A stretch of DNA of 64,000 nucleotides from positions 715,949-779,948 of the forward strand of contig NZ_KI912610.1 of the NCBI RefSeq assembly GCF_000519305.1. Direction: 5' to 3'. Within the stretch, counting starts at the first letter, position 1, and each line of letters starts with the position of its first letter. Below the pieces are notes generated by a model. It made no database searches. It was given only the letters and a program-made list of their open reading frames with translations, and was not told the origin of the DNA. The DNA is from Mesorhizobium ciceri WSM4083. Lineage in GTDB: Bacteria; Pseudomonadota; Alphaproteobacteria; Rhizobiales; Rhizobiaceae. The position numbers and the translations under genes were made by a program. Below are positions 28,177-59,447 of this stretch, piece by piece.

Positions 28177-29925
28177 ATGGGAAAATCTGTGGCTCAGCTT
28201 CACAATCTTGGTCGGCTGCTCTGTCATCCGCTGACGCTGGCCGTGGTCAGCCTAGCCGGTGTCTTCGCCGCCGGACGGGCCGAGCACGAATGGCTGTCGG
28301 TGCCGTTCTCGCTGGCGCTGGTGGCAGCCCTTGCCGGACTTCTGTTCCTGGCTTCGGGGCGCCTTGCCTTTTCCGTCTATCTCGCCTGGATGGGCATTGC
28401 CTTCGTCACCGTGGTTTCGGCGATCAAGTTCAGGATGAAGGGGTTTTCGCTGCACTTCTACGACACGGTCTTCGTGTCGAAGGATCCGGAAGTGTACCGC
28501 TTCCTGCTCGGCTCCTACCTCCATCTGATCGCACCGGTCGTCATTGCCCTGGGGCTCGGCATTACGGCGGCGGTGCTTCTGTTCCGGATCGATCGAAAAA
28601 TCGGCTGGCCGGTATCGGCACGCGTCCTGGTCATGGCGGCGCTCGTCGTTCTGGTGCCGCTGACCTTTCCGGCCGAGGCCTCGAAGGACCGTTATTTCTA
28701 CTACATGCAGGGCCGGCACATGTCGGCCTTCTTCGTTTCGCTGCTGGATTTGCACAACCTGGTTGTTGAATCGGGCTTCGAAAAGCGGCTGCAAGCCGTC
28801 GCGCCGCAGCCGCCTTTTGCCGACACGGTCGATTGCGGCGAGCGGGCTGATCTTCCCGACGTCTTTTTCGTGCTCAGCGAAAGCCAGTCCGATCCCGGCT
28901 ATTTTCCGCAGGTCGGCAACGGCGCGGGATTCCTGCAAAGATTCGCACCGGGGGCCGGCACGCCGCATCCGATGCAGGTCGAGACGTTTGGCGGCGGCAC
29001 CTGGATCACCAATCTGTCGCTGATGACCGGCCTGTCGGCCACCGATTTCGGCTGGCGAAGCCCCTATCTGACCATCACCCTGCAGGACAAGGTCGCAGGA
29101 GCCCTGCCGGAGGTGCTGGCGCGCTGCGGCTATCGAACTGTCGTGATGACGCCGATGGACTTTTCGTTCGTCAATGAAGGGCCGTTCCTGAAATCGATCG
29201 GTTTCGAGACCGTGCTCGACATCAAGGACATCGCCGCGCCCTTCTATCACCTGCGCGACAACTTCTACTATCACGCAGCCGAGGCGTTCATCGCCAGGCA
29301 CCGCAAGGAAGACGGCCGGCCGCTGTTCCTCGAAATCCAGACCATGTTTCCGCACTCACCCTATGAGGGGCGGATGGAGCCTGAAATGAAGGTCGAGGGC
29401 GAGCCTTTCTCGGGCGATTTCCAGGCCAATGAATATCTGCGCCGGATGGCGGTGGCGCGCGGCGATTTCCAGGATTTCCTCGACAACAGGCAAGCGGATG
29501 CCGGCCAACGCGGCGCCGTGGTGCTCGAGTTCGGCGATCACCAGTCGTCGGCGACCAAGCCGTTCGTCGACGCCATCGCCGGCGACGACGCCTTGGCGAC
29601 GCCAGGCTCGCTCGCCTACCGCACCTTCTACACGCTCACCACCTTCAACCATCCACTGCGCCACCCGATGCCTGACCTGGCGCCGCTCGACGTCGGCTTC
29701 CTCAGCGCAAGCCTGCTCGACGCCGCCGGCCTGCCGATGTCGCCTGTCATGGCCGATCTCGTGCGCCTGCGCGACCATTGCGGCGGCAGGTTCCATGGTT
29801 GTCAGGATCGAGCCGAAGTGGATGCGCATCTGCGTCGGCGCGTCGATTCAGGGCTCTTGCATCTGTTCCCGGAAGCGGTGCCGTTGCGCGGGCTGGCGCC
29901 AGTCCAATCTGTGGATGCCCGCTAG
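28177..29925 (+). CDS. LtaS/OpgB-type sulfatase-fold membrane enzyme
   Basis: The 582-residue product has about five membrane helices in the first 200 residues, then a large extracytoplasmic domain of the alkaline-phosphatase/sulfatase superfamily: PDVFFVLSESQSDP (metal-binding), GGGTWITNLSLMTGL (probable Thr nucleophile), VVMTPMDFSF and VVLEFGDHQSS (metal ligands). Such enzymes move phosphoglycerol or phosphoethanolamine groups; in rhizobia related proteins decorate cyclic glucans. Gram-negative LtaS itself is unlikely. It ends tail to tail with the IorB gene, the two stops sharing CTAG. Confidence 0.82.
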   Translation: MGKSVAQLHNLGRLLCHPLTLAVVSLAGVFAAGRAEHEWLSVPFSLALVAALAGLLFLASGRLAFSVYLAWMGIAFVTVVSAIKFRMKGFSLHFYDTVFVSKDPEVYRFLLGSYLHLIAPVVIALGLGITAAVLLFRIDRKIGWPVSARVLVMAALVVLVPLTFPAEASKDRYFYYMQGRHMSAFFVSLLDLHNLVVESGFEKRLQAVAPQPPFADTVDCGERADLPDVFFVLSESQSDPGYFPQVGNGAGFLQRFAPGAGTPHPMQVETFGGGTWITNLSLMTGLSATDFGWRSPYLTITLQDKVAGALPEVLARCGYRTVVMTPMDFSFVNEGPFLKSIGFETVLDIKDIAAPFYHLRDNFYYHAAEAFIARHRKEDGRPLFLEIQTMFPHSPYEGRMEPEMKVEGEPFSGDFQANEYLRRMAVARGDFQDFLDNRQADAGQRGAVVLEFGDHQSSATKPFVDAIAGDDALATPGSLAYRTFYTLTTFNHPLRHPMPDLAPLDVGFLSASLLDAAGLPMSPVMADLVRLRDHCGGRFHGCQDRAEVDAHLRRRVDSGLLHLFPEAVPLRGLAPVQSVDAR

Positions 29926-31499
29926 ATCGTATCCGGCCCCAGTGTCGCCACTGTCTTCAGCGCACCGTCCAGCATGTCGCCCTTCTCGTCCTTCAGCGCC
30001 ATCTCGCGCAGGCGGCGGATCCAGTCGGCGGCATCCGTGCGGCCCTTGACCAGATCGAGTGCGGACAGCACGCGGTCGAATTTCGACTGTGCCCGGACAT
30101 GGGTGTCGCTGTAGCCCTTGATCAGCCGGCGGCAATTGAGGATTTCGACGGCCAGTGCGTAATCCTGGGGAACATGGCCGAGTGCCAGCGCGTACCAGCG
30201 GTCGAGATGCGCGACCTCGACCTTGTGGCGCAGCAGACTGCGGCGCCAGCGGCGCAGGCCGCCGATGAACCACAAGGCTGCAAAGCCGGCAAAACTGTCG
30301 GTGCGGATGCGGCGGCCATGGTTGATGCGGCGATCGAGAAAGGCGGCGAGCTTCGGCCGGTCCTCGATGTAGCTGCCCAGACCCGCTGGCAGCGTGCCGC
30401 AGAACTCCTCGATGCGCGGGTGGAAATACTCGGTCACCTGAAGGATCGAGCCATCCTTGACGCCAACCTCGCGGCGCACGCGTTTGCCGCGCGTCGAGCG
30501 CGTCTTGAGATCGGCGACGCGGATCATATCGTCGTAGCATAGCGCGTTGGCCAGATGCTTTGCGGCAGCGATCGACAGGCCGTAGCCCTGAACCGGCCCG
30601 TCCAGCGCGACGGCCTTGTCCAGCCGGTCGAGATACTCGCGCCCATAGGCGATGTCCTGATAGTCGACGACCTTTCTCAAGCCCCGAAGCGCCATGTCGC
30701 GCACGGCCACCGGCAACAGATCGATGCGGGCGGCCAAGGCCTGCCAGCCCTGAAGCAGGTTTAGCGGGCCACTCACCTGTCCTGTGCCCGAGGCAGATTC
30801 GACAATTGCGGGCTCAGCCGGCTTCGGCGCCGGTGCTGCCGTGCCGCGCGCGCGGTCAAACGCAGCACCGAAGGCGGCGAGGCTGGCCTTGACGCCCCGG
30901 CCGCCAGCACCGATCGCCTGTTCGTAGCTTTCGCGGGTGAACGGCAGCGCGTCGGACCCCGCCAGCGCACCAAGCAGGCTGGCCGAGATCATCGAGCCAT
31001 TGTCGGCTGCGATCTTTTCCATGTCGAAAGCGATGAAGCGCTTCGATGCGGCTTCCGCCGTAGCATGCACCTTGGAGGACGAAGCCCGGCCGTCGCCCGG
31101 CTCGATCTTTTCCGACACGGCGGAGATGCGGTGCGACGAGGCAATCAGCGTGGTGCGCTCGGGCGTGACGAAGCCGCGGATGATGGCGCGGCCGGCTTCC
31201 ATCAGTTCAGCGGCGATCAGGATGTCGACATCGCCCTGCGAGGGCGACAGCGCGAAGACCGGCAGACGGCCGGTATCGCGGGCCATCTCGACATAGTAAA
31301 TGGTGGCACCGGTGCGCTGGGCGACGCCGGCGACCGAGGTCGATTGCGCGACAAAACCGTTGCGCTCGGCAACGTCGGTGATCCAGTCGGCGAGCACGCC
31401 ACCGCCCTGGCCACCGACCGCCAGCACTGCGAGCCTGATGACGCGCTCACTATCCTGAGCGCCGGCGTGGGCGCGAAGTGGGGGGACGGCGTCAAGCAT
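29922..31499 (-). CDS. Indolepyruvate oxidoreductase-like enzyme, beta subunit (IorB-like) with long C-terminal domain
   Basis: The 525-residue product has an N-terminal POR gamma-type domain (LAVLAVGGQGGGVLADWI, TSVAGVAQRTGATIYYVEM, about residues 20-200) and a helical C-terminal domain of about 280 residues found in aerobic relatives. It overlaps the alpha-subunit gene by eight bases. The pair oxidatively decarboxylates a 2-oxoacid with CoA, passing electrons to ferredoxin or another acceptor. In this cluster I infer isatinate, or an arylpyruvate, as substrate rather than indolepyruvate itself. The C-terminal domain may help the enzyme work in air. Confidence 0.88.
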   Translation of the reverse strand: MLDAVPPLRAHAGAQDSERVIRLAVLAVGGQGGGVLADWITDVAERNGFVAQSTSVAGVAQRTGATIYYVEMARDTGRLPVFALSPSQGDVDILIAAELMEAGRAIIRGFVTPERTTLIASSHRISAVSEKIEPGDGRASSSKVHATAEAASKRFIAFDMEKIAADNGSMISASLLGALAGSDALPFTRESYEQAIGAGGRGVKASLAAFGAAFDRARGTAAPAPKPAEPAIVESASGTGQVSGPLNLLQGWQALAARIDLLPVAVRDMALRGLRKVVDYQDIAYGREYLDRLDKAVALDGPVQGYGLSIAAAKHLANALCYDDMIRVADLKTRSTRGKRVRREVGVKDGSILQVTEYFHPRIEEFCGTLPAGLGSYIEDRPKLAAFLDRRINHGRRIRTDSFAGFAALWFIGGLRRWRRSLLRHKVEVAHLDRWYALALGHVPQDYALAVEILNCRRLIKGYSDTHVRAQSKFDRVLSALDLVKGRTDAADWIRRLREMALKDEKGDMLDGALKTVATLGPDTI

Positions 31500-33645
31500 C
31501 GGCGAAGGTCAGGCGCCGGCTTTCGCGGCGGCGCTGCAACAGGCTGATGGTGGCGCGGCGCGCGGCTTCCAGGAAGCGATCCCAGCGGCTCGGATTGTGC
31601 ACGACGTCGGCGCGGTAGAAGGATGGGCACAGCACTGCCGCATCGGCGACCTCGCCGCAATTGCCGCAGCCGACGCAACTCTGGTCGATATGCGCGACCG
31701 GGTCGTCGCGCAGCGGATCGTCTGTTGACTTGACCGACAGCGAGGGACAGCCGGACAGCCGCATGCAGGCATGGTCGCCCGTGCAAATGTCCTCGTCGAC
31801 GCCGAACTTTGGTTTCACGACACGGGTCCCGCCCTTGATCGCCTTGTCGACCAGCGGCTTTTCGCGGCGCTGCCGGTTGAGCATGCATTCGGACGAAGCG
31901 ACGATGACCTTCGGCCCTTTCTCCTCCGTCGTCAGCGCCTCGCGCAGCGTGTCCTGCATCTTGGTCACGTCATAGGTGCGGTCGACATGGCGCAGCCATT
32001 TGACGCCCATGCCTTTCACCGCCTCGGTGATCGGATGTTTCGTCGACTTGGTCTTGTTGCCCGCGCGGGACGAGAGGATGTCCTGGCCGCCGGTCGCGGC
32101 CGAGTAAAAATTGTCGACGATGACGATGACGCCGTCGTTCTTGTTGAACACCGCATTGCCGATCGAGGAGGTCAGGCCGTTGTGCCAGAAGCCGCCATCG
32201 CCGACGAAGGAGATCGAGCGGCGCTTGGCATCAGGCGAATTGAACGCCGAGGCGGAAGCCGGCCCCAGCCCATAGCCCATGGTGGTGGCGCCGAGCTCGA
32301 AAGGCGGCATGATCGAGAACAGATGGCAGCCGATGTCGGAGGCGATGTGGTGCTTGCCGAGTTCCTGCTCGACCAGCTTGGTCGCGGCAAAGATCGGACG
32401 TTCCGGGCAACCGATGCAGAAACCCGGCGGCCGGCCCGGCACGACGTTGATCAGGTCGGCTGCGTCGACGCCGTCACCGACCTTGTTGGGCGCCCGCACC
32501 TCGCCCGGCAACAGATGCGGCGCCTCAGCACGCAGGAAGGCGCCGATGCCGTCGAGCATGACCTGGCCGGTATATTCGCCGGCCATCGGCAGGTACTCCT
32601 TGCCGACCAGCCTGGTGCCGCGGCCCGCCTTGTGCAGCATCGAGGCAAAGGCCTGTTCGATGTAGTTGGGCTGGCCTTCCTCGACGACCAGCACCGACTG
32701 CTTGCCCTCGCAGAACGACAGGAACTCGTCATCGATCAAGGGATAGACGGCATTGAGCACATAGAGCGGCACGTCGGTGTCGCCATAAATGTCGGCAAGG
32801 CCGAGCCGCTGCAGCGCGCGGATGACCGAGTTGTACATGCCGCCCTGCATGACGATGCCGACCGAACCATGATCCGAGCCGAAGAACTCGTTGATCTTGT
32901 TCCTGGCGATGAAGTCCACCGCCGCCGGCCAGCGCTTCTGCACCTTCTCCTTCTCATGCAGGAAGGAAGCGGGCGGCAGCACGATGCGGCCGGTGTCGCG
33001 GCGCGGGGCGTCAAGTGCATCGGCGACCGTCATCGGCGGCCGCTTGTTGTCCTTGGCGATGAAATGGCCGTGGACATGGCAGCAGCGGATGCGAACCTGC
33101 AGCATGACCGGCGTGTTGGAAATCTCCGACAGCTCGAAACCATCCTCCACCGCCTTGACGATCGATGGCAGGTTGGGTCGCGGATCGAGCAGCCAGACCT
33201 GGCTCTTCATGGCGAAGGCATGGCTGCGCTCCTGCATGATCGAGGAGCCTTCGCCATAATCCTCGCCGACAATGATCAGCGCACCGCCGGTGACGCCGCC
33301 GGAAGCCAGATTGGCCAACGCGTCGGAGGCGACATTGGTGCCGACGGTCGACTTGAAGGTGGCCGCCCCACGGATCGGGTAGTGCACCGAGGCGGCCAGC
33401 ATGGCGGTGGCGGTGGCTTCCGAGGCGCTGGCCTCGAAATGCACGCCGAGCTCGCCCAGAATGTCCTGCGCGTCGGCCAGCACGTCCATCAGATGGCTGA
33501 TCGGCGCGCCCTGATAGCCGCCGACATAGCCGACGCCGCATTGCAGCAGCGCCTTGGTGATGGCGAGGATGCCTTCGCCGGCAAATTCCTCGCCGGCGCC
33601 GAGCCGGAGTTTTTCGACTTCCTTGGCAAAAGACCGTTCAGCCAT
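31492..33645 (-). CDS. Indolepyruvate oxidoreductase-like enzyme, alpha subunit (IorA-like)
   Basis: The 717-residue product has the POR pyrimidine-binding domain near the N terminus (QCGVGYVGGYQGAPISHL), the thiamine-diphosphate domain with FVGDGGFWHNGL at about residue 478 and VDNFYSAATGGQD, and a C-terminal ferredoxin-like part with ICTGDHACMRLSGCPSL and CVGCGNCG (about 655). Two iron-sulfur sites are therefore likely. The start has a strong GGGAGA ribosome site. Together with IorB it forms the CoA-dependent 2-oxoacid oxidoreductase of the cluster; it would yield an acyl-CoA without a ligase. Confidence 0.92.
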   Translation of the reverse strand: MAERSFAKEVEKLRLGAGEEFAGEGILAITKALLQCGVGYVGGYQGAPISHLMDVLADAQDILGELGVHFEASASEATATAMLAASVHYPIRGAATFKSTVGTNVASDALANLASGGVTGGALIIVGEDYGEGSSIMQERSHAFAMKSQVWLLDPRPNLPSIVKAVEDGFELSEISNTPVMLQVRIRCCHVHGHFIAKDNKRPPMTVADALDAPRRDTGRIVLPPASFLHEKEKVQKRWPAAVDFIARNKINEFFGSDHGSVGIVMQGGMYNSVIRALQRLGLADIYGDTDVPLYVLNAVYPLIDDEFLSFCEGKQSVLVVEEGQPNYIEQAFASMLHKAGRGTRLVGKEYLPMAGEYTGQVMLDGIGAFLRAEAPHLLPGEVRAPNKVGDGVDAADLINVVPGRPPGFCIGCPERPIFAATKLVEQELGKHHIASDIGCHLFSIMPPFELGATTMGYGLGPASASAFNSPDAKRRSISFVGDGGFWHNGLTSSIGNAVFNKNDGVIVIVDNFYSAATGGQDILSSRAGNKTKSTKHPITEAVKGMGVKWLRHVDRTYDVTKMQDTLREALTTEEKGPKVIVASSECMLNRQRREKPLVDKAIKGGTRVVKPKFGVDEDICTGDHACMRLSGCPSLSVKSTDDPLRDDPVAHIDQSCVGCGNCGEVADAAVLCPSFYRADVVHNPSRWDRFLEAARRATISLLQRRRESRRLTFADA

Positions 33646-33699: not shown

Positions 33700-33748
33700 G
33701 AGCATGACCTCTTCCGAAAACCGGGATCCACTTTTCGGGGTCATGCTA
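33700..33748. repeat. RIME-like short palindromic repeat
   Basis: GAGCATGACC at the left pairs with GGTCATGCT at the right, and inside CCGAAAACC pairs in part with CTTTTCGG. The pattern is the common rhizobial element of the type ATGAC...TTCCGAAAA...TTTTCGG...GTCAT. It fills the gap between iorA and the MarR gene. The last bases, GCTA, supply the TAG stop of the MarR gene (33746-33748). Confidence 0.8.
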
Positions 33749-34228
33749 GATATCGTGCTTGCGAATGTTCTTCAGCATCTTCAAAAGCGTCGAGATGAGC
33801 GCGGAATATTCGGCGTCGTCGATATCGTCGAACATCGTCTCGAAGGCGTCATGCATGGCCGGCCAGGCGCGCGCGAATTCGGCGCGGCCCTCATCGGTCA
33901 GGAACACATGGCGGATGCGGCTGTCGGTGACGCCCTGCTCGCGCCGCACAAGGCCCTGGCCCTCCAGTGAGTCGAGCGTCCGGCTCAAGGTCGACTGCTC
34001 GATCACCGTATAGACCGAGAGGTCGTTGACGGTGATGCCGTCGGTGACCGACAGCACGGCCAGCGTGCGCACCTGCGGAATGGTCAGGCCCTGCTTGCGG
34101 AAATCGTCGCGCAAGGTGGCGTTGTAGCGGCCCATGATGCGGTTCATCAGATAGGGCGCGAATTGCTGCAGGCCGATCTGTCCCAGGGTCGAAATGCACT
34201 GGCGCTTTTCCGCGACCTTCTCTTCCAT
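33746..34228 (-). CDS. MarR family transcriptional regulator, copy 1
   Basis: The ATG at 34228 gives 160 residues; upstream frame is a shadow of the flavoprotein gene. The winged-helix region is clear: LTIPQVRTLAVLSVTDGITVNDLSVYTVIEQSTLSRTLDSLEGQGLVRREQG, followed by the wing RIRHVFLTDEG. MarR proteins usually repress nearby catabolic genes and are released by an aromatic ligand or its CoA ester. Its start overlaps the stop of the flavoprotein gene (TGATG). Palindromes at 36697, 44462, 52165 and 52260 are candidate operators for this protein or its paralogue at 47590. Confidence 0.94.
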   Translation of the reverse strand: MEEKVAEKRQCISTLGQIGLQQFAPYLMNRIMGRYNATLRDDFRKQGLTIPQVRTLAVLSVTDGITVNDLSVYTVIEQSTLSRTLDSLEGQGLVRREQGVTDSRIRHVFLTDEGRAEFARAWPAMHDAFETMFDDIDDAEYSALISTLLKMLKNIRKHDI

Positions 34229-35799
34229 CACAGCCTCCCCGCCAGGAGAAAGCCGGAACCGCCGCCGAGACCCGCGCCCGGGTGGGTCGAGGCGCCGATA
34301 TGGTAGAGACCCTTGATGCCGGTCTGATGGTTGCGGCTGCTCTTGAACGGCCGCCACAGGAAGGACTGGTCGATGGTCGAGGAGCCGCCATAGGGGTCGC
34401 CGCCGACCAGGTTGATGTTCATCGCCTCCAGATCGGCCGGCGAATAGGAACGCCGCGCAATGACGCTGTCCTTGAAGCCGTCGATGTGGCCGGCGAGGAT
34501 CGCCTCGGCGCGATCGGCATAGGCTTCGCGCAGCGCATCGGTCCATTGCCCATCTGCCGGTGCCAGCAGCTTGCCGGCGGCGTCGCCCTTGATGTGGCGA
34601 GGCGCCTCGGGCAGTTGCAGCCAGAGGATCGCCTTGCCCTGGGGGCAGCGCGACGGGTCGAGCGCATGCGGCTGGCCAACACAGATGGTCGGCACCTCCG
34701 GCAGCATGCCGCGCGCCGCCTCGTTGCAGGCTTTCGAGACGCCATCCAGCCCCGGCGTCAGGTGCAGCAGCGCGACCTTGTCCAGGCCTTCGCCGCGCCA
34801 TGCGGGCGGTTTGTCCAAGGCGTAGTGGATCTGGAAATTGCCTTTGCCGTAGCGGTACTTTTGCGTCGCCTCGACATCGGCTTTGGGAGCATCCGCGCCA
34901 AGCAGCCTGCCATAGAGCTGCGTCGGTGTAACCGAACAGATGACGCCCTTGTTGGCCGTGATTGTCTCGCCCGAGACCAGCCGCACGCCGGTTGCCCGGC
35001 CATTGCTTTGAACGATCGAACTGACATCGGCTCCCGTGCGGATGTCGCCGCCGCGTTCCCGGATCAGGGCCTCGAAGGCGGCCAGCAGGTTCTGCGCCCC
35101 GCCCTTGACGATCGGCGCGCCGGCTGCCTCAAGTGCAAAGGCGATCACCTTGGCGATCTGGCCGGAGAATGCGTCTTCCGGCCCAAGTCCGGCATGCAGC
35201 ACCCAGGGTGCCCACAGCGCACGGACGGTTTCGGATTGGTAGGTGCTTTCCAGCCAGCCGCGCGCCGGTACCAGTGCCTCGCCGAGAAAGGCGGCAAGGC
35301 CGCGCGGGCCACGCCGCCAGCCATCACCGGCCAGCAGCCTGGCGGTCGGGTAGGACCACAGGCTGCCGCCGAGCAGGCCGAACAGCAGGCCGGCATTGCG
35401 CTCGATGCCGCCGACATCATCCGCGTGCCGGTCACCGTCGCCTGCCGCGATTGCGTTGAGGGCGGCGACGTTGGCGGCGCGGTCTATGCTGAGCACGGCA
35501 TGGCTGCCGTCCGGCCGCAGCACGCCGGTCGGCGTGCCGGTGTGGCAGAACTCCAGCCCGTGCCGTGCGAGGTCGGCGCCCAGTGCCGCAAAGGCCGGCG
35601 AGGTGATGAACAGCACGAAGGTCGTCGCCATCACATCATGGATGAAGCCGGGCGCGGTGATCTCCTCGGTGCGCAGGCAGCCGCCGATGCGGTCGTTGCG
35701 CTCCAGGACGAGCACACGCGCCCCTTTGCCGCCAAGCATCGCCGCGCAGACCAGCGCGTTGATGCCGCTGCCGACGATGATGTGATCCGGCTGGCTCAC
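34228..35799 (-). CDS. CrtI/phytoene-desaturase-like FAD oxidoreductase, copy 1
   Basis: The 523-residue product starts at GTG (35797-35799). It has the dinucleotide motif IIVGSGINALVCA, the FAD-ring segment RIGGCLRTEE, and the C-terminal pair GGDPYGGSS ... GASTHPGAGLGGGSGF. This is the broad CrtI-like amine oxidase/desaturase superfamily; members in catabolic clusters are little studied. It is 15 bases after the cyclase gene in one operon with MarR. A second protein of the same kind (36727-38301) lies on the other side of the cyclase, divergently transcribed. The substrate is unknown; a dehydrogenation step before isatin is one guess. Confidence 0.86.
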   Translation of the reverse strand: MSQPDHIIVGSGINALVCAAMLGGKGARVLVLERNDRIGGCLRTEEITAPGFIHDVMATTFVLFITSPAFAALGADLARHGLEFCHTGTPTGVLRPDGSHAVLSIDRAANVAALNAIAAGDGDRHADDVGGIERNAGLLFGLLGGSLWSYPTARLLAGDGWRRGPRGLAAFLGEALVPARGWLESTYQSETVRALWAPWVLHAGLGPEDAFSGQIAKVIAFALEAAGAPIVKGGAQNLLAAFEALIRERGGDIRTGADVSSIVQSNGRATGVRLVSGETITANKGVICSVTPTQLYGRLLGADAPKADVEATQKYRYGKGNFQIHYALDKPPAWRGEGLDKVALLHLTPGLDGVSKACNEAARGMLPEVPTICVGQPHALDPSRCPQGKAILWLQLPEAPRHIKGDAAGKLLAPADGQWTDALREAYADRAEAILAGHIDGFKDSVIARRSYSPADLEAMNINLVGGDPYGGSSTIDQSFLWRPFKSSRNHQTGIKGLYHIGASTHPGAGLGGGSGFLLAGRL

Positions 35800-35814: not shown

Positions 35815-36606
35815 TTAGCCCTTCGAAACCAGCGCCAGCGCGCGGATCGGGCTGCCGGTGCCGTGCTCGATCTTCAGCGGCGCCGCGATCAGGATGGCGC
35901 CCTTCGGCGGCAACTGGTCGAGGTTGCAAAGGCTGGCGAGGCCGTAGCGGTTGGCCTTGTGCATCAGCGTGTGCGCCGGGAACGGCGGCTCCATGCCACC
36001 GGCTTTGCCGGCATCGGTGCCGATCGTCTCCGAGCCCCAGCCCTTGATGTCCTTGCTGATCAGGAACTGGATGGCTTCGGCCGTCGGGCCGGGCGTGTGC
36101 GGGCCGGTCTCGTTGGCGTTGAGGAACTCGGCTTCCGAGCCGTTGCGCTTGTACCAGTCGGTGCGCATCACGACCCATTCGCCGGCATTGATCGCGCCAT
36201 GCTTGGCTTCCCAGGCCTTGATGTGGTCGACGGTGAGCAGGAAATCGTGGTCGGCGGCGGCTTCCTTCGAACAGTCGATGACATTGACCGGGCCGACGAA
36301 ATTCTGCGCCGGAATGGTGTCGGTGGCGCCGTCCGGATAATCCTTGCCGGAGATCCAGTGCTGCGGCGCGTCGAAATGCGTGCCGGAATGTTCGCCGAGC
36401 TTCAGCCAGTTCCAGGCCCACCACGGACCGTTCTTGTCGTAACGGGAGATGTTGTGGATCTCGACCTTCGGCGTGTCGACGGCGAGTTCCGGCGGCAGCT
36501 TGATCAACGGCGTGTCCGGCCCGAGCGGCGCCGACAGGTCGACCACCTTGATGGCGCCTGAAAGAAGCTGGCTGGCGACTTCGCCGAGGAGTTTTTGCGT
36601 ATCCAT
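35815..36606 (-). CDS. Cyclase-family metal hydrolase, isatin hydrolase-like
   Basis: The ATG at 36606 follows GAGGGAA; the product has 263 residues. It belongs to the cyclase family (PF04199, with kynurenine formamidase and isatin hydrolase). The metal-binding motif HSGTHFDAPQHW sets His73, His77, Asp79 and His83, followed by Trp84, and Ser225 lies in GLASL. As I recall isatin hydrolase of Labrenzia, it uses the same arrangement and a serine at this place. The reaction would be hydrolytic opening of isatin to isatinate (2-aminophenylglyoxylate). Kynurenine formamidase is the main alternative, but no other kynurenine gene is near. Confidence 0.78.
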   Translation of the reverse strand: MDTQKLLGEVASQLLSGAIKVVDLSAPLGPDTPLIKLPPELAVDTPKVEIHNISRYDKNGPWWAWNWLKLGEHSGTHFDAPQHWISGKDYPDGATDTIPAQNFVGPVNVIDCSKEAAADHDFLLTVDHIKAWEAKHGAINAGEWVVMRTDWYKRNGSEAEFLNANETGPHTPGPTAEAIQFLISKDIKGWGSETIGTDAGKAGGMEPPFPAHTLMHKANRYGLASLCNLDQLPPKGAILIAAPLKIEHGTGSPIRALALVSKG

Positions 36607-36696
36607 GGTTTGAAGTTCCCTCTTTCGTGTGATGATCAAGGCTCGTCTCGGCCCTTTAATATCCTACTAGACGAAAACATATGCATCTGCAATTAT

Positions 36697-36726: not shown

Positions 36727-38301
36727 GTGAGCGAGTTCGACGCCATCTTTGTTGGGGCGGGCCACAACAGTCTGGCATGCGCCGCGCATTTGGCGCTCAA
36801 AGGCTGGAAAACCGGGATTTTCGAGCGCAGCGCAGCAATCGGCGGCGCCGTCCAGACGCGCGAATTCACCCTCCCTGGCTTTCGCCACGATTTCGGCGCG
36901 ATGAATCTGAGCCTCTTCGCCGGCTCGGCCTTCCACCGGAAATATGCAAATGAATTGAAAGTGCAGGGGCTGGAATTCGCCCCGGTCGCCGACTGTTTCG
37001 CCAGCGCCTTCCCCGACGGACGCTGGTTCGGCGTCAGCAACGACCTGGAAAAGACCGCCGCGCGCATCGCCGCCTTCTCCGCCGCCGACGCCCAGACATG
37101 GCGCAGGCTGGTTGCCGCCTTCCCGGCTGAGGCCGAACACCTGTCCCGGCTGCTGGGATCGCCGATGAGCGCCCGCGCGCTTGCCGGGACGGCGTGGAAC
37201 CTGTGGCGCAAGAAGGGCATGTCCGGGGCGCTCGATACGGGCCGCCTGCTGTTGTCCTCGCCCCGCGCCTGGCTGGAGGAGAATTTCGAGTCGCCGCATA
37301 TCAGGGCAACGCTCGCCACCTGGGGCATGCATCTCGACTTCGCGCCCGACATCGCCGGCGGTGCTGTGTTCCCCTATCTGGAATCGATGGCCAACCAGAG
37401 TTTCGGCATGGTGCTGGGCAAGGGCGGCGCCGACACCATCATCCGGGCCATCTCGGGCATGGTGACCTCCGCCGGCGGCAAGGTCGTCACCGATGCCGAA
37501 GTGGCCGAGATCACGGTTTCCGCCGGCAAGGCGACCGGCGTGCGGCTCGCTTCGGGCGAGACGCATACCGCCACCAAGGCGGTCATTGCCAGCGTCGCGC
37601 CCAAGGCGCTGACTGGTAAGCTGCTGCCCAATGGTTCGGGCGACGCCGGCTTCGACACGGCGATGCAAAAGTTCCGCCATGCGCCGGGCACGATGATGAT
37701 CCATCTGGCGCTGGACGATCTGCCCGACTGGCGCGCCGGAACGGAGCTTCGGCAGTTCGCCTATGTGCATCTGTCGCCGTCGCTCGACGCCATGTCGCGC
37801 ACCTATCAGCAGGCGATGGCGGGCATGCTGCCGGACGAGCCGGTGCTGGTCGTCGGCCAGCCGACGGCGATCGACCCATCGCGGGCGCCTGAGGGAAAGC
37901 ATGTGCTGTGGGTGCAGGTGCGCATGTTGCCCGCCGAAATCCTGGGCGATGCCGCCGGCAAGATCGCACCGGACCATTGGGACAAGGTGAAGGAAGCCTA
38001 CGCCGAGCGTGCCCTCGACATCATCGAGACCTATGCGCCCGGCCTGCGAAACCAGATCCTTGGCCGGGCCGTGTTTTCGCCCATCGATCTCGAGCGCGAG
38101 AACCCGAACCTCGTCGGCGGCGATCAGGTCTGCGGCAGCCATCATCTGGCGCAGAATTTCTTGTTCCGGCCGGCGCGTGGCTATGCCGGATGGAACACGC
38201 CGGTGGCCAATCTGCACCTCACCGGGGCCGCGACATGGCCGGGCGCCGGCACCGGTGCGGCGTCGGGCTTCATGCTCGCACAACAGCTTGGCGGGAGGTA
38301 G
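36727..38301 (+). CDS. CrtI/phytoene-desaturase-like FAD oxidoreductase, copy 2
   Basis: The 524-residue product starts at GTG 36727. It has VGAGHNSLACAAHLAL, SAAIGGAVQTREF and the C-terminal GGDQVCGSHH...GAATWPGAGTGAASGF, matching copy 1 at 34228-35799 at both ends and in the central LDPSR/IDPSR region. The two are paralogues, perhaps acting on related substrates or together. It leads the plus-strand operon that continues with the ABC importer genes. The preceding gap has the putative MarR operator. I cannot assign the substrate. Confidence 0.86.
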   Translation: MSEFDAIFVGAGHNSLACAAHLALKGWKTGIFERSAAIGGAVQTREFTLPGFRHDFGAMNLSLFAGSAFHRKYANELKVQGLEFAPVADCFASAFPDGRWFGVSNDLEKTAARIAAFSAADAQTWRRLVAAFPAEAEHLSRLLGSPMSARALAGTAWNLWRKKGMSGALDTGRLLLSSPRAWLEENFESPHIRATLATWGMHLDFAPDIAGGAVFPYLESMANQSFGMVLGKGGADTIIRAISGMVTSAGGKVVTDAEVAEITVSAGKATGVRLASGETHTATKAVIASVAPKALTGKLLPNGSGDAGFDTAMQKFRHAPGTMMIHLALDDLPDWRAGTELRQFAYVHLSPSLDAMSRTYQQAMAGMLPDEPVLVVGQPTAIDPSRAPEGKHVLWVQVRMLPAEILGDAAGKIAPDHWDKVKEAYAERALDIIETYAPGLRNQILGRAVFSPIDLERENPNLVGGDQVCGSHHLAQNFLFRPARGYAGWNTPVANLHLTGAATWPGAGTGAASGFMLAQQLGGR

Positions 38302-38410: not shown

Positions 38411-39940
38411 ATGACAATCAACAGACGTGAATTGCTGGGATACAGCGCCGCGGCACTCGGGGCGGCCGCCGTCGGCCTGCCGCAGATCGCCAAGGCAGCG
38501 GCCGGCGAACTGACCATCGCCTACAACGTCAACCTGCCATCCTGGGATCCGACCACCGGCCCGTCGGCCGTCAACCCGACCATCCAGGGGCTTTACCAGT
38601 CGGTGTTCGACCAGTTCATCCCGCAGAAGCCCGATTTGTCCTTCGCGCCTGGCCTGCTCACCGAATGGGGCTGGAACGATGACCGCACCAAGATCATGAT
38701 GACGGTGCGCGAAGGCGTGACCTGGCATGACGGCTCGCCGTTCACGGCCGAGGACGTCGTCTGGTCGCTGCAGCGGGCAGGCGACGAAAAGACCGGCAAC
38801 CCGATCCAGTTCGTCTGGAAGAACGTCAACAACTTCAAGATCGACGGCAACAAGATCACCGGCGACGTCGTGCAGTTCGACCCGGTCTATTTCAAATGGA
38901 TGTCGTTCCTGACCGGCTACATCATGCCGAGGGCCTATTACGAGAAGGTCGGCGCCGAAGGTTTCGAGAAGGCGCCGATCGGCACCGGCCCCTATATGGT
39001 CGAAAAGTTCGAGCGCAACGCCTTCCTGCGGCTCAAGGCAAACCCGAACTATTGGGGCGGCAAGCCGGCCTTCGAGAATGTGACGATCAAGTTCGTCGCC
39101 GACGCGGCGAGCCGCGTCGCCGAGATCGAATCCGGCTCCTCGCAAGTGACGCTGGAAATCCCCTATGAGGAGTATGACCGGTTGATCGCCAAGGACGGGC
39201 TGGCAGGCTCCTGCAAGAACGTCTCCGACATCGGCATGATCTTCTTCAACGACATCGAGGCGATGCTGGACAAGAACGTCCGCCAGGCCGCCGTGATGGC
39301 CGTCGACAAGAAGCTGCTGGTCGATCGCCTGCTGCGCGGCTACGGCCAGCCGATCGATACGCTGGAAACGCCGGAATACGCATCCTACGACGCGTCGATC
39401 AAGGTCGAGCACAATCCGGAAAAGGCCAAGGAATTGCTGGCTGCTTCCGGCTATTCGCCGGAAAAGCCGGTCAAGTTCACCATCCAGACGACCAAGGGCT
39501 TCAAGCCCAAGGACTATGAGATGATCCAGGCGATCGTCGGCATGTGGCGCAAGGTCGGCATCGAGGCGACGATCGAAGTCTACGAGATCGCCAAGCACTA
39601 CGAGCTGCGCGCCGCCGACAAGCTGGCGCCGGCCGCCTTCTACAATTGGGGCAACGCCATCGGCGATCCGACCACCTCGACCGGCTTTGCCATGTACGGC
39701 CCGAGCCCGCATTCGGTGTGGGACAGCCAGGATTTGATCGACATGATCAACCCGCTGTGGGGCGAAAAGGACGAGGCCAAGCGCATCGCCGGCTGGAAGG
39801 CTGTCGACAAATACATCGCCGAGCAGGCCTATGTGCTGCCGCTGATGCAGTATGCGCAGCCGATCGTGCATGCCAAGGGCGTCAATGTGGTGCAGCATGT
39901 GTCCGGCGCGCTGCTGCCGGCGCTGATGACCCCGGCCTGA
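38411..39940 (+). CDS. ABC transporter substrate-binding protein, family 5, Tat signal
   Basis: The 509-residue product has a twin-arginine signal (NRRELLGYSAAALGAAAVG) and an SBP_bac_5 fold with REGVTWHDGSPFTAEDVVWSLQR and GTGPYMVEKFERN. A strong AAGGGG ribosome site precedes it. It is the first of a five-gene importer (two permeases and two ATPases follow after a repeat). Family 5 proteins usually bind peptides, nickel, opines or sugars; the place inside an aromatic catabolic island suggests it may import the island's substrate or a conjugate of it, which is inference. Confidence 0.9.
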   Translation: MTINRRELLGYSAAALGAAAVGLPQIAKAAAGELTIAYNVNLPSWDPTTGPSAVNPTIQGLYQSVFDQFIPQKPDLSFAPGLLTEWGWNDDRTKIMMTVREGVTWHDGSPFTAEDVVWSLQRAGDEKTGNPIQFVWKNVNNFKIDGNKITGDVVQFDPVYFKWMSFLTGYIMPRAYYEKVGAEGFEKAPIGTGPYMVEKFERNAFLRLKANPNYWGGKPAFENVTIKFVADAASRVAEIESGSSQVTLEIPYEEYDRLIAKDGLAGSCKNVSDIGMIFFNDIEAMLDKNVRQAAVMAVDKKLLVDRLLRGYGQPIDTLETPEYASYDASIKVEHNPEKAKELLAASGYSPEKPVKFTIQTTKGFKPKDYEMIQAIVGMWRKVGIEATIEVYEIAKHYELRAADKLAPAAFYNWGNAIGDPTTSTGFAMYGPSPHSVWDSQDLIDMINPLWGEKDEAKRIAGWKAVDKYIAEQAYVLPLMQYAQPIVHAKGVNVVQHVSGALLPALMTPA

Positions 39941-40156: not shown

Positions 40157-41164
40157 ATGCTCCTGCAACGATTCCTGATCCGTCTGCTGACGATGCTGAT
40201 CACGCTGTTCGGCGTGGCCGTCGTCGTCTTTGTCGTGATCCGCGTCGCGCCCGGCGATCCGATCGCCATGATGCTGCCACCTGGTGCTACGGATGCCGAC
40301 ATCGCCCGGCTGCGCGCGCTCTACGGCCTCGACAAGACCATCGTGCAGCAGTTCTTCATCTGGCTGTCCGGCGTCGCCAGGGGCGATTTCGGCACCTCGA
40401 TCTCGCTGCGGCAGGATGTGCTCGGCCTCGTCTTCAACCGGCTGCCGGCGACGCTGGAACTTGCCATCGTCGCGCTTGTGATGGCGGTGGCGATCGGCGG
40501 CACGACGGCAATCATCGGCGCGCGCGAACGCGGCACGGCGGTCGAGGCCGGCATCGACATCGCCAGCGGCGCTGCGCTTTCCATTCCCGACTTCCTGTGG
40601 GGCCTGGTGCTGATCCTGCTGTTCGGCGTGCTGGTGCCGATCTTCGACATTTCCGGCAGGGTGTCGCCGCAACTGGACCTGCCCTTCGTCACCCAGTTCT
40701 ATCTGTTCGAGAGCCTGTTGCGCCTGCGCCTCGACCTGACCTGGGATCTCCTGAAGCACATGCTGATGCCGGCCGTGGCGCTGGCACTGCCGCTGGCGGC
40801 GATCATCTCGCAGCTGCTGAAACAGTCGCTGAAGGAAGTGCTCGACCTCGACTATGTCGTGCTGGCGCGGGTGAAGGGGTTTTCGGAAACGCAGGTCATC
40901 CTGCGCGAGGCGCTGAAGAACGCAGCGCTGCCGACGCTGACGCTGGTCGGCGTGCAGTTCACCTTCCTGATCGGCGGCACCGTCATCGTCGAACGGCTGT
41001 TCTCCTATGAAGGCCTCGGCAATATGGCGATCGATGCCGTCATCAACCGCGACCTGCCGCTGATCCAGGGCATCGTGCTGGTCTTCGCGCTGCTGTTCGT
41101 GCTGATCAACCTCAGCGTCGACATGATGTACGCGCTGCTCAATCCGAGGCTGCGCCATGGATGA
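40157..41164 (+). CDS. ABC transporter permease, DppB-like
   Basis: The 335-residue product has the DppB/OppB pattern: LLQRFLIRLLTMLITLFGVAVVVFVVIRVAPGDP at the N terminus, about six membrane helices and the EAA loop VVLARVKGFSETQVILREALKNA. It forms half of the channel of the importer begun by the 38411 gene. It overlaps the next permease gene by eight bases. There is a palindromic repeat upstream. Confidence 0.93.
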   Translation: MLLQRFLIRLLTMLITLFGVAVVVFVVIRVAPGDPIAMMLPPGATDADIARLRALYGLDKTIVQQFFIWLSGVARGDFGTSISLRQDVLGLVFNRLPATLELAIVALVMAVAIGGTTAIIGARERGTAVEAGIDIASGAALSIPDFLWGLVLILLFGVLVPIFDISGRVSPQLDLPFVTQFYLFESLLRLRLDLTWDLLKHMLMPAVALALPLAAIISQLLKQSLKEVLDLDYVVLARVKGFSETQVILREALKNAALPTLTLVGVQFTFLIGGTVIVERLFSYEGLGNMAIDAVINRDLPLIQGIVLVFALLFVLINLSVDMMYALLNPRLRHG

Positions 41165-42005
41165 GGGCCGTGCTCGAAGGCGAGGTGTGCCGCCACGCCT
41201 GTGGCTGGCCGGCGGCTGGCTGCTGCTGGCGCTTCTGGCGGCGATCTTCGCGCCGCTGGTCGCGCCGCAGGATCCGCTGGCGCAGGATTTGATGCTGGAG
41301 CGGCTGCCACCGTTTTGGATGGCCGGTGCCGATCCCGGCTACTGGCTCGGCACCGACAGCCTTGGCCGGGATCTTCTGTCCCGGCTGATCTTCGGCGGCC
41401 GCATCGCCTTTATCGTCGCGTTCGCCGCGGCCATTGCGGCGTGCCTGGTCGGCTCGGCGCTGGGCCTGATCGCCGGCTATTTCGGCGGTTGGGCCGACCG
41501 CATCATCTCGCGCATCGTCGATGTCTGGATGGCATTTCCGCCAGTGCTGTTCGCCATCCTGCTGGTGGCGGTGCTCGGCACCGGCCTCAGTTCCGTCATC
41601 CTGGCCATCGCCATCATCGACTGGACGCGTTTTTGCCGGGTGATCCGTGCCGAGACGATGGGCCAGTCGCGCATGGACTATGTCGAGAATGCCCGCATCG
41701 CCGGCTATGGCCGCATCGGCATCATGCTGCGCGAGGTGCTGCCCAATGTGGTGCCGTCGATCGTCGCGCTGCTGTCGCTGGAAATGGGCATCGCCGTCAT
41801 CGTCGAGGCGATCCTGTCCTTCGTCAATCTGTCGATCTCGACCGACGATCCGACCTGGGGCGGCATCATCGCCGAGGGCCGGCTGTCGATCCATCAGGCC
41901 TGGTGGGTGCTGGTGTTCCCGCTGGTCACGCTGATCCTGACCGTATTGTCGTTCAGCCAGTTCGGCGAGGCGTTGAAGACGCGCTTCGATCCGGTGCTGC
42001 GATGA
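41157..42005 (+). CDS. ABC transporter permease, DppC-like
   Basis: The 282-residue product has the OppC/DppC layout with WLGTDSLGRDLLSRLIFGGR after the first helix, several membrane helices, and the EAA loop ENARIAGYGRIGIMLREVLPNV. It is the second half of the channel. Its start overlaps the DppB-like gene and its stop overlaps the first ATPase gene, so the operon is tightly coupled. Confidence 0.93.
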   Translation: MDEGRARRRGVPPRLWLAGGWLLLALLAAIFAPLVAPQDPLAQDLMLERLPPFWMAGADPGYWLGTDSLGRDLLSRLIFGGRIAFIVAFAAAIAACLVGSALGLIAGYFGGWADRIISRIVDVWMAFPPVLFAILLVAVLGTGLSSVILAIAIIDWTRFCRVIRAETMGQSRMDYVENARIAGYGRIGIMLREVLPNVVPSIVALLSLEMGIAVIVEAILSFVNLSISTDDPTWGGIIAEGRLSIHQAWWVLVFPLVTLILTVLSFSQFGEALKTRFDPVLR

Positions 42006-42883
42006 GTGCGATCTGTCTGGACATCAGGGATCTTAGCGCCGTGCTGCCCAACGGCCAGCGCGTGCTGCGCTCGGTGTCGCTTGCCGTCCAGCCCGGCGAG
42101 GTTCGCGCGCTGGTCGGCGAAAGCGGCGCCGGCAAGACGATGATCGGCAAGGCGGTGCTCGGTGTGCTGCCGTCAAGCGTGCGCATTGTCGAAGGCGACA
42201 TGCTGCTTGAAGGCGAAGACCTCGGCAAGCTTCAGCCCAAGGCGCGACGCACGCTGATCGGGGCACGCACGGCGCTGATCCCGCAGGATCCGCTGACCGC
42301 GCTCAACCCGTCGCGGCGCATCGGCCCGCAGATGACCGACCGGCTGGTGCGCATCCTCGGCTGGAGCGGCGAGAAGGCCGATACCCGCATTCGGCAGTTG
42401 CTCGACGAGGTGCAGATCCGCGACCCCGACCGCGTGCTGAAAAGCTATCCGCACGAGCTTTCCGGCGGCATGCGCCAGCGCGTGCTGATCGCCGCCGCCT
42501 TCGCCGCGGAGCCAAGGCTGATCGTCGCCGACGAGCCAACGACGGCACTCGACGTCACAGTGCAGAAGCAGATCCTGCGGCTGATCGTGCAATTGCAGCG
42601 CGAACACGGCACGGCGATCCTGTTCGTCACCCATGATCTCGGCGTCGTCGCCAAGATCAGCCAGAGGGTCTCGGTGCTTTATGCCGGCAAGGTGGTGGAG
42701 GAGGCCGACACGGCTGCCCTCTTCGCAGCACCGCAGCACCCCTACACGCGAGCGCTGATGGCGGCGACGCCGCGCTACACCGATCCTTTCGCCTCGCTGA
42801 AGCCGGTGGACGAGGCGGTTCTGGCCGGGCTTGCCTCGGAGATCGCCGCCGCAGACCAGGCCTGGAGGCGGTCGCATGGCTGA
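42002..42883 (+). CDS. ABC transporter ATP-binding protein, DppD-like
   Basis: The 293-residue protein starts at ATG 42002, overlapping the permease stop by four bases. It has Walker A GESGAGKT (about 37-44), Q loop, signature LSGGMRQR, Walker [13 protein letters not shown] and the C-terminal extension PYTRALMAATPR of the oligopeptide type. It overlaps the next ATPase by eight bases. The signature carries GGM instead of GGQ, a common variant in this family. Confidence 0.93.
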   Translation: MSAICLDIRDLSAVLPNGQRVLRSVSLAVQPGEVRALVGESGAGKTMIGKAVLGVLPSSVRIVEGDMLLEGEDLGKLQPKARRTLIGARTALIPQDPLTALNPSRRIGPQMTDRLVRILGWSGEKADTRIRQLLDEVQIRDPDRVLKSYPHELSGGMRQRVLIAAAFAAEPRLIVADEPTTALDVTVQKQILRLIVQLQREHGTAILFVTHDLGVVAKISQRVSVLYAGKVVEEADTAALFAAPQHPYTRALMAATPRYTDPFASLKPVDEAVLAGLASEIAAADQAWRRSHG

Positions 42884-43712
42884 GCCGCTGTTTTCCGTGC
42901 GTCGGCTGAAGGTCGCGCTGCCCGACATGACGCGCAAGCCACTGATCGGCCGCGCGCCATTGGTCGAAATCCTGAAGGGCCTGGACTTCGACCTGCCGCG
43001 GGGCTCGGTGACCGGCATTGTCGGCGAATCCGGTTCCGGCAAGTCGACGCTCGGCCGCGCTTTGGTGCGCCTGCTGGAACCCAGCGCAGGCAGCATCACT
43101 TTCGACGGCCGCGACATCACCCATCTGCCGGAAGCGGAACTGCGGCCTCTGCGCCGCAATCTGCAGATGATCTTCCAGGATCCGATGTCGTCGCTCAACC
43201 CGCGCCGCACCATTGCCAGCATTATCGCCGCGCCACTCAAGCAAAATGGCCTCGGCGACAATCTCAAGGCGCGCGTGGCTGAGGCGCTGCAGCGTGTCGG
43301 CCTGCCGCAAAGTTTCGCCAGCCGCTATCGGCACGAACTGTCGGGCGGCCAGCGCCAGCGCGTCGGCATTGCGCGGGCGCTGGCGCTGTCCCCGAAATTC
43401 GTGCTGGCCGACGAGATCGTCTCCGGGCTGGATGTGTCGACCCAGGCGCAGATCCTGACCCTGCTGGAGAAGCTGGCGGCGGAAATGGGGCTGACCGTCG
43501 CTTTCATCAGCCACGATCTGTCTGTCATTCGGCGGCTGTGCCGGCAAGTGATCGTCATGCGCGAAGGCGTGATCGTCGAAGCGAGCGCCACCGACGCCTT
43601 ATTCGACAAGCCGCAGCAGGCCTACACGCGCGATCTCATCGCGGCCATTCCGCTGCCCGAGATCGATGCTGGATGGCTGGACATCCCCGCCGCCGCCAAG
43701 GCGCCGACATGA
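42876..43712 (+). CDS. ABC transporter ATP-binding protein, DppF-like
   Basis: The 278-residue protein starts at 42876 after GGAGG. It has Walker [11 protein letters not shown]-loop segment IFQDPMSSLNPRR, signature LSGGQRQR and a Walker B FVLADEIVSGLD, with Glu then Ile-Val after the catalytic Glu as seen in several DppF-like proteins. It completes the importer set of one binding protein, two permeases and two ATPases. The VOC protein gene follows after 78 bases. Confidence 0.93.
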   Translation: MAEPLFSVRRLKVALPDMTRKPLIGRAPLVEILKGLDFDLPRGSVTGIVGESGSGKSTLGRALVRLLEPSAGSITFDGRDITHLPEAELRPLRRNLQMIFQDPMSSLNPRRTIASIIAAPLKQNGLGDNLKARVAEALQRVGLPQSFASRYRHELSGGQRQRVGIARALALSPKFVLADEIVSGLDVSTQAQILTLLEKLAAEMGLTVAFISHDLSVIRRLCRQVIVMREGVIVEASATDALFDKPQQAYTRDLIAAIPLPEIDAGWLDIPAAAKAPT

Positions 43713-43790
43713 ATGCATACGCACGCCGAAGAGCGGGCCTCGGACGTGCGACCACAAAGACCCAAGTCCCGTCAAATGGAGAGGACTGAC

Positions 43791-48903: not shown

Positions 48904-49064
48904 GCGCCCCCCTCTGTCCTACCGGACATCTCCCCCTCTAGGGGGGAGATCGGCTGTCACGCACGCCTTCGCAAATCGCCAACGTCTCAAGAAGGGCGCC
49001 GACGCCGACGCAGCCAATCTCCCCCCTAGAGGGGGAGATGTCCGGCAGGACAGAGGGGGGCGCC
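48904..49064. repeat. Palindromic intergenic repeat, family B, copy 2
   Basis: The 161-base element is built like that at 21750-21910: terminal GCGCCCCCCTCTGTCCTACC and GGACAGAGGGGGGCGCC, inner hairpins TCTCCCCCTCTAGGGGGGAGA and CTCCCCCCTAGAGGGGGAG. It separates the crotonase from the acyl-CoA dehydrogenase gene in an otherwise continuous operon. An open frame runs from it into the dehydrogenase but is not its true start. Confidence 0.88.
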
Positions 49065-49103
49065 GTGGAGCGCAGGGCCTGGGGAATAGTGGTGGAAGCA
49101 CCC

Positions 49104-57462: not shown

Positions 57463-57464
57463 GC

Positions 57465-58388: not shown

Positions 58389-58389
58389 G

Positions 58390-59397: not shown

Positions 59398-59408
59398 GGC
59401 GGGCGAGT

Positions 59409-59436: not shown

Positions 59437-59447
59437 GTTTCGCAACC

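Follow-up and report, generated by a model that had tools for sequence, protein, structure and literature searches.

A predicted class B isatin hydrolase of Mesorhizobium ciceri and its place in a likely gene cluster from isatin to 2-aminobenzoyl-CoA

On the minus strand of a 64,000-nucleotide stretch of Mesorhizobium ciceri WSM4083 (contig NZ_KI912610.1, positions 715,949 to 779,948; hereafter the window) lies a gene that, on alignment, tree and active-site residues, almost certainly encodes a B-class isatin hydrolase (EC 3.5.2.20), opening isatin to isatinate (2-aminophenylglyoxylate). On the same strand and 3' of it are genes for a CrtI/CrtO-like flavoprotein (FAD1), a MarR regulator and the subunits of an IorA/IorB-like oxidoreductase (IorAB), and a second flavoprotein (FAD2) and an ABC transporter are encoded divergently (Table 1). 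These neighbours, overlooked in the initial annotation, are the most telling evidence; the hydrolase likely acts in a cluster leading from isatin to 2-aminobenzoyl-CoA. Hydrolase identity, gene order, conservation and a shared 16-base site are all read directly from the sequence.

The best phmmer match of known structure is isatin hydrolase B (IHB) of Labrenzia (4J0N/4M8D, E 2.7e-128, covering residues 2-262), followed by the isatin hydrolases A (IHA) of Labrenzia (E 1.5e-94, 56% identity) and Ralstonia (E 4.3e-89, 54%). Identity to Labrenzia IHB (4J0N) is 70.7% over 259 aligned residues without a single gap, and this explains why the spacing agrees with that of the Labrenzia enzyme and why His73, His77, Asp79, His83, Trp84 and Ser225 are all found exactly where the initial annotation had placed them. 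Passages of PMC6117287 name for isatin hydrolase a metal motif, HxG[T/A]HxDxPxH, together with proton-transfer residues, an IHB pocket of Phe63, Trp65, Trp84 and Phe209, and a signature that reads GLAS in class B, GLQC in class A and I(L/I)E at the same place in kynurenine formamidase (KynB); they also state that a Ser-to-Cys change at the GLAS serine increased IHB activity. The window protein satisfies the metal motif (HSGTHFDAPQH, with H73, H77, D79 and H83), has Asp198 and His212 in place as well as the aromatic residues W63, W65, W84 and F209, and carries GLAS at residues 222-225. Ser225 is thus present as annotated, but it marks class B only, A-class enzymes carrying Cys; likewise the metal motif is indeed common to KynB, so that the motif alone cannot separate the two enzymes, a distinction that falls to GLAS, Trp84 and the WxW pocket.

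Conservation was examined in the best 80 of 378 related loci, the nearest being from Mesorhizobium. Fourteen active-site positions (including GLAS) are invariant in 80/80 loci, 67 of the 263 positions vary, and none of the 80 aligned copies contains a stop codon; the plus strand opposite the gene is likewise open over most of 35815-36606. The closest relatives of Labrenzia IHB that were compared, from Tritonibacter (93%) and Sulfitobacter (91%), both sit in the same gene block. By analogy with its relatives, from which the metal dependence is taken, the product would be a Mn2+-dependent cyclic-amide hydrolase with a His/His/Asp metal site, and judged as an enzyme from its sequence it is an ordinary, well-supported addition to isatin hydrolase class B.

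It is extremely unlikely that the gene encodes KynB instead, or a general formamidase merely sharing the metal motif. The two do belong to the same Pfam family (PF04199) and share that motif, arylformamidase is the sole NCBIfam match of the hydrolase, phmmer returns a weak match to KynB 4COG (E 6.9e-7), and tryptophan dioxygenase and kynureninase are both encoded in the genome, where a profile search found no protein above the KynB cut-off. However, the hydrolase scores 35.3 bits on the KynB equivalog model TIGR03035 against a cut-off of 223, 188 bits short, and the KynB motif I(L/I)E, with its second-metal glutamate, is not in the protein, which has GLAS at that place and Trp84 besides. In a maximum likelihood tree (IQ-TREE, 37 rows, with three KynB rows of which two are partial) the 16 GLAS rows, including the window gene and Labrenzia IHB, form one group (support 100/98) and the three KynB rows form a separate one (100/98); GLQC rows are scattered and not a single group as the tree is drawn, and placement of the long branches own_C13, own_C1b and L128 is unsure. 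KynB was rejected on the phmmer ranking, the sub-cut-off model score and the separate tree group, in line with the original preference for isatin hydrolase, which each test computed on the protein supports. It was also correct that no kynurenine-pathway gene is near: none was found among the scanned window ORFs, and the one tryptophan dioxygenase of the genome, with kynureninase beside it, is on a different contig (C24). Two other PF04199 proteins are encoded in the genome, both without Trp84 and GLAS, and the one on contig C13 (L001) outscores the hydrolase on the KynB model (83 versus 34 bits), though it too falls below the cut-off of 223. This paralogue weakly resembles both isatin hydrolases and KynB; judged by eye, its neighbours resemble a dehydrogenase of zinc type and an ABC permease of sugar type.

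Table 1. Genes and features of the isatin hydrolase block in the window
Feature	Coordinates	Strand	Basis or remark
IorB-like subunit (IadB family)	29922..31499	-	POR domain and DUF6537
IorA-like alpha subunit, thiamine pyrophosphate (TPP)/Fe-S 2-oxoacid:ferredoxin oxidoreductase (IadA family)	31492..33645	-	TPP_enzyme_C
MarR regulator, IadR-like	33746..34228	-	start uncertain, 34216 or 34228
FAD1, CrtI/CrtO-like flavoprotein, predicted isatin-forming oxidase	34228..35799	-	Pfam Amino_oxidase/NAD_binding_8
Predicted isatin hydrolase, B class (GLAS), 263 residues	35815..36606	-	ATG start at 36606; alignment, tree, residues
Putative operator ATGCATNTGCAANTAT, 16 bases	36681..36696	+	spacer of divergent hydrolase and FAD2 genes
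FAD2, second CrtI/CrtO-like flavoprotein	36727..38301	+	39-40% identical to FAD1
ABC substrate-binding protein, family 5 (peptide/nickel/opine type)	38411..39940	+	SBP_bac_5, PDB relatives
ABC permease, DppB/OppB type	40157..41164	+	
ABC permease, DppC/OppC type	41157..42005	+	
ABC ATPase, DppD position	42002..42883	+	
ABC ATPase, DppF type	42831..43712	+	true start probably downstream of listed TTG
VOC/glyoxalase-family protein	43713..44390	+	no tblastn match in some genus-level loci
Bifunctional flavin monooxygenase and OYE-type reductase	44532..46826	+	NF006101 1262 bits, cut-off 1078
SDR dehydrogenase	46829..47596	+	start uncertain
Second MarR regulator	47524..48060	+	start uncertain
Enoyl-CoA hydratase family (ECH; NF006107)	48057..48869	+	482 bits, cut-off 330
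Acyl-CoA dehydrogenase	49038..50252	+	
RidA-family protein (enamine/imine deaminase family)	50317..50712	+	PF01042

Annotation of the neighbours varies in firmness. IorB clears its model comfortably (NF006179, 704 bits against a cut-off of 348); IorA scores 273 bits on TIGR03336, under the cut-off of 651, and has the GDG..N and Cys motifs. The best NCBIfam matches of FAD1, CrtO and crtI_fam, are both under cut-off. For the MarR protein beside FAD1 the best PDB matches are 3cjn (E 3.2e-42) and then 7kym (E 2.8e-23), the latter named as a Bradyrhizobium japonicum MarR in PMC11630574. The VOC gene is unmatched in, for example, L008, L020 and L027, where the SDR gene enters the stretch instead, and it may be a variable insertion. 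Directly beyond RidA, on the opposite strand, is a luciferase-like (LLM) flavin monooxygenase (51028-52119); farther on are a class-V aminotransferase/cysteine-desulfurase-like protein (TIGR01976; 54297-55571, plus strand), preceded by an ABC binding protein and permease of amino-acid type, and a second oligopeptide-type ABC transporter with two ATPases, two permeases and a family-5 binding protein (55778-61103, minus strand).

The block is recurrent. A linkage table was drawn up for 31 loci and the window, with 33 hydrolase-family genes on stretches of unequal length. IorA is in the same stretch for 15/15 GLAS genes, and in 11 of these 15 stretches FAD1, FAD2 and the transporter binding protein are present too, the other four (L087, L092, L119, L146) having neither flavoprotein. 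An iadG-like thiolase is in the stretch of 11 of the 14 GLQC genes, one of the 11 being the source of the thiolase query itself; the four remaining hydrolase-family genes read GLPA (twice), GLSS and GLEN. Among plasmids, an isatin hydrolase relative of either class is within 22 kb of an IorA relative of at least 60% identity in 40 of 46 records. FAD1 relatives of at least 59% occur in 18 plasmid records, with the hydrolase adjacent in 12, elsewhere on the plasmid in five, and not among the matches listed in one; as 60 of the 219 hydrolase records are listed, an absence may reflect a weak match outside the listing. In Alloyangia the monooxygenase, SDR, monooxygenase/reductase, RidA, hydrolase, FAD1, MarR, IorAB, FAD2 and transporter are all within 25 kb. 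In Alloyangia pacifica T6124 (L091 18617-20148) the match of the FAD2 relative is divided over two frames, suggestive of a frameshift, and in the other Alloyangia record (H213) it is in one piece.

A second shared feature lies in the spacer that separates the divergent hydrolase and FAD2 genes, where the 16-base site ATGCATNTGCAANTAT reads ATGCATCTGCAATTAT at 36681-36696 of the window. Of 85 spacers, 81 carry it without a mismatch, three with a single mismatch and one (Tritonibacter) with three. While 79 of these spacers are from the window and near relatives, five of the six more distant ones keep the site with at most one mismatch (Sulfitobacter L088 and L145, plus L116-L118). The 6.85-Mb host genome holds one exact copy and another with a single mismatch, against none of the reversed pattern, and the chance expectation within the window is 0.2 with two mismatches allowed. 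On a plasmid of Sulfitobacter indolifex the block is split, and the site, with one mismatch each, precedes the hydrolase-MarR-IorAB operon and is found again in the FAD1/FAD2 spacer, the two copies being 64 kb apart with a common 21-base core; that both halves carry it argues for one regulon. At two or fewer mismatches it was not found in the Azospirillum, Alloyangia, La6, Deinococcus, Caballeronia or Tsukamurella stretches. We infer that the MarR protein next to FAD1 binds the site and controls the divergent operons; a 24-base MarR_73 site is described in passages of PMC9613470.

Attached to the transporter genes is an operon that points to the fate of isatinate. Its bifunctional monooxygenase/reductase is the sole host-genome protein above the NF006101 cut-off, a family that NCBI names salicylyl-CoA 5-hydroxylase/oxidoreductase. 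We predict it to be a 2-aminobenzoyl-CoA monooxygenase/reductase, because both activities are joined in the protein and because kynurenine-pathway genes are near its operon in three genera: tryptophan dioxygenase or kynureninase is within, or at most 9 kb from, the operon in Thalassospira, Ruegeria and Aminobacter (neither is annotated in the fetched operons of Phyllobacterium, Paracoccus denitrificans and Comamonas). Langkau is said to have described, in 1995, a 2-aminobenzoyl-CoA monooxygenase/reductase as one enzyme with both activities. The order monooxygenase/reductase-SDR-MarR-ECH-acyl-CoA dehydrogenase is the same in five annotated operons, and a link between the block and the 2-aminobenzoyl-CoA pathway is very likely.

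What the window operon does not contain is a 2-aminobenzoate-CoA ligase: Phyllobacterium has acyl-CoA dehydrogenase, ligase and RidA, the window acyl-CoA dehydrogenase and RidA, and the sole AMP-binding match in the window is of FadD type, ~11 kb past RidA. The host ligase, 82% identical to that of the Phyllobacterium operon, is on contig C24 with tryptophan dioxygenase and kynureninase. Counting as anthranilate-type any ligase at least 48% identical to this one, we found it in one (Tsukamurella) of seven loci having both IorA and monooxygenase/reductase (the window, Alloyangia, La6, L119, Azospirillum L152, Caballeronia and Tsukamurella), and in six of seven having monooxygenase/reductase without IorA. 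L119 and L152 carry iadF-like ligases, L152 having a further one with 33% identity to iadF; that of the window is the FadD type. Novosphingobium plasmids, in three records of which IorA and the monooxygenase/reductase are ~14 kb apart, were left out; in Deinococcus, where IorA has no match, the operon that contains the hydrolase also encodes a ligase and a TPP-binding protein. This is the pattern expected if IorAB couples decarboxylation to CoA transfer, and the family of IorAB is one of CoA-dependent 2-oxoacid oxidoreductases. We lean, on this comparison, towards IorAB turning isatinate straight into 2-aminobenzoyl-CoA. No published role for IorAB on isatinate was found in the open-licence literature searched, where the one match was the iad paper PMC9613470.

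Clues to the formation of isatin come from Azospirillum, where the order is AraC-SDR-indole monooxygenase-flavin reductase-transporter-FAD1 (a 72% orthologue)-class-A isatin hydrolase. Passages of PMC6221969 describe IifA as the last iif enzyme, converting 3-hydroxyindolin-2-one (dioxindole) to anthranilate; in Azospirillum, FAD1 and the hydrolase follow the transporter and nothing recognisable as IifA was seen, judging from the annotation. By analogy, this operon looks like iif with IifA replaced by FAD1 and isatin hydrolase. Because the two stand where IifA would, FAD1 may form isatin, probably from dioxindole, a proposal to which we give even odds. For FAD2 an earlier C3 oxidation is a guess: the closest named proteins, matched below cut-off, are the CrtO ketolases, and the step is proposed by analogy with these.

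Taken together, we propose that the ABC transporter would import an indole-derived heterocycle, which FAD2 and FAD1 would oxidise at C3 to isatin, FAD1 probably taking dioxindole to isatin. The hydrolase would convert isatin to isatinate, and IorA/IorB would then yield 2-aminobenzoyl-CoA, CO2 and reduced ferredoxin by oxidative decarboxylation. The monooxygenase/reductase, RidA, SDR, ECH and acyl-CoA dehydrogenase would de-aromatise, deaminate and beta-oxidise the CoA ester, with the MarR protein beside FAD1 acting at the 16-base site to govern both divergent operons. In this scheme we infer every substrate except isatin, the product of IorAB, and both the binding and the ligand of MarR. The cluster appears to degrade an indole-type compound, by a route perhaps without free anthranilate.

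Two established routes could account for parts of the block. It might be a canonical iad locus for indole-3-acetic acid whose IadCDE genes are at another place in the genome: passages of PMC9613470 count IorA/IorB (IadA/IadB) and MarR among the iad components, parts of PMC12633357 describe IadI as an amidase that bears a kynurenine formamidase annotation, the MarR protein here matches 7KYM, Ruegeria has the 16-base site with two mismatches just before a Rieske reductase gene, and in Paracoccus saliphilus the hydrolase-MarR-IorAB set adjoins a full complement of Rieske genes that has a class-A hydrolase of its own. Yet PF00866, the IadE-type subunit, has no match in the host genome, two controls being above cut-off; the three PF00848 proteins of the genome match glycine betaine monooxygenase best, below its cut-off; and iadC, D, E, G and H, the thiolase and the side-chain genes have no match in the window, all of which makes this origin quite improbable. 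Lacking a Rieske beta subunit in the genome, and with the three alpha-type proteins betaine-monooxygenase-like and below cut-off, the canonical indole-3-acetic acid locus was rejected. Indole itself, as in the iif-like Azospirillum and Alloyangia clusters, is an improbable growth substrate, though less so. An indole/styrene monooxygenase does accompany FAD1 in Azospirillum, in Alloyangia and in genome G001, and the first oxygenase could be non-homologous; but the Azospirillum indole monooxygenase query has no match in the host genome, the window included, and a dedicated ABC importer would not obviously be required for indole. The same query matches G001 at 62%, serving as a positive control; with no match in the host genome, indole degradation via the known monooxygenase type was rejected. 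By these searches the locus is neither canonical iad (auxin) nor iif (indole), because the genome shows neither an IadE-type Rieske subunit nor an indole monooxygenase of the tested type.

It is rather unlikely, but far from negligible, that IorAB yields free anthranilate (or the aldehyde), to be activated by the ligase on the kynurenine contig. The host genome does hold that ligase, and anthranilate is the reported iad end product in passages of PMC9613470 and PMC12633357; against this stand the CoA dependence of the IorAB family and the lack of the ligase from six of seven loci with IorA and monooxygenase/reductase. Several observations nonetheless count against direct formation of 2-aminobenzoyl-CoA, and against the proposed cluster more broadly. 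In the 2025 iad preprint (PMC12633357), parts of which assign steps to iadC-J, the Variovorax region iadC-K2 restored anthranilate, so that free anthranilate arises there, apparently without IadAB, and iadA and iadB go unmentioned in its main text. Tsukamurella has IorAB and an anthranilate-type ligase beside the monooxygenase/reductase, and the Aminobacter stretch holds neither IorA nor ligase. The 6.3-kb contig L120 has the hydrolase and the monooxygenase/reductase and a match to neither IorA nor the ligase; it was left out, and counting it would make the contrast 1/7 versus 6/8, a contrast drawn from few, hand-chosen loci. Alloyangia and La6 hold the whole block yet lack the 16-base site, and most linkage records are near-copies from Sulfitobacter or Mesorhizobium. 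Six plasmid records with IorA at 60% or above (Hydrogenophaga, Variovorax and one uncultured), and all four with IorA below 60%, have no isatin hydrolase among the matches listed (60 of 219). On a Mesorhizobium loti plasmid, molybdenum hydroxylases adjoin FAD1, FAD2 and the transporter, again with no isatin hydrolase among the matches listed, and the flavoproteins may therefore do something else.

Two of these plasmid contexts deserve description in their own right. That of M. loti NZP2037 (pML2037; L151, L156) combines FAD1 (70%), FAD2 (63%), a transporter of the same type and VOC with molybdenum hydroxylase genes of xanthine-dehydrogenase type, RidA and a gene resembling fumarylacetoacetase, which hints at N-heterocycles as substrates of the flavoproteins. 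Records H180-H185 (Hydrogenophaga, Variovorax, MN536506) carry IorA relatives at 68.8%, with no isatin hydrolase among the matches listed.

Returning to the proposed route from isatin to 2-aminobenzoyl-CoA, it is tempting to speculate, if only tentatively, that interchangeable upper modules (Rieske iad, an iif-like indole monooxygenase, or FAD1/FAD2 with an ABC importer) feed a lower module of IHB and IorAB, with FAD1 as dioxindole-to-isatin oxidase and IorAB as an isatinate:ferredoxin oxidoreductase making 2-aminobenzoyl-CoA directly. If so, free anthranilate and its ATP-dependent activation would be by-passed, and FAD1, FAD2 and the IadA/IadB family would gain assigned reactions. Passages of a 2018 review (PMC6221969) raise the question of whether indole degradation truly passes through isatin, no iif gene having been tied to making or using it; the neighbourhoods described here offer testable candidate enzymes for that question and for the role of iadA/iadB, and the cluster suggests testable functions for FAD1, FAD2 and IorAB. 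The block is common to rhizobia and marine roseobacters, and so may matter for indole removal by plant- and algae-associated bacteria. No earlier description of it was recognised in the open-licence literature searched, most of it judged from listings.

The cluster is a variation on the indole and auxin routes already known. Its hydrolase resembles IHB of Labrenzia (Roseibium) aggregata (4J0N/4M8D) in metal, proton-transfer and pocket residues and in GLAS, differing at Phe63, which is Trp63 in the window protein; with isatin hydrolase A (Labrenzia 5NNA/5NNB, Ralstonia 5NMP; 54-56% identity) it shares fold family, metal site and predicted reaction, but those enzymes have GLQC in place of GLAS. 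As in the iad loci of Variovorax and Bradyrhizobium, in the portions of the literature consulted, there are MarR, IorA/IorB, a ring-opening amidase and an ABC binding protein; unlike them, the window has two CrtI/CrtO-like flavoproteins and an attached 2-aminobenzoyl-CoA-type operon, and no Rieske oxygenase was found. The iif/ind operon of Acinetobacter and Cupriavidus is approached through the iif-like Azospirillum operon, which holds a FAD1 orthologue and an isatin hydrolase, whereas the window is without an indole monooxygenase match. Finally, monooxygenase/reductase, SDR, MarR, ECH, acyl-CoA dehydrogenase and RidA are ordered as in the aerobic 2-aminobenzoyl-CoA pathway of Phyllobacterium, except that the ligase between acyl-CoA dehydrogenase and RidA is missing from the window operon, its relative in the host genome being grouped with the kynurenine genes.

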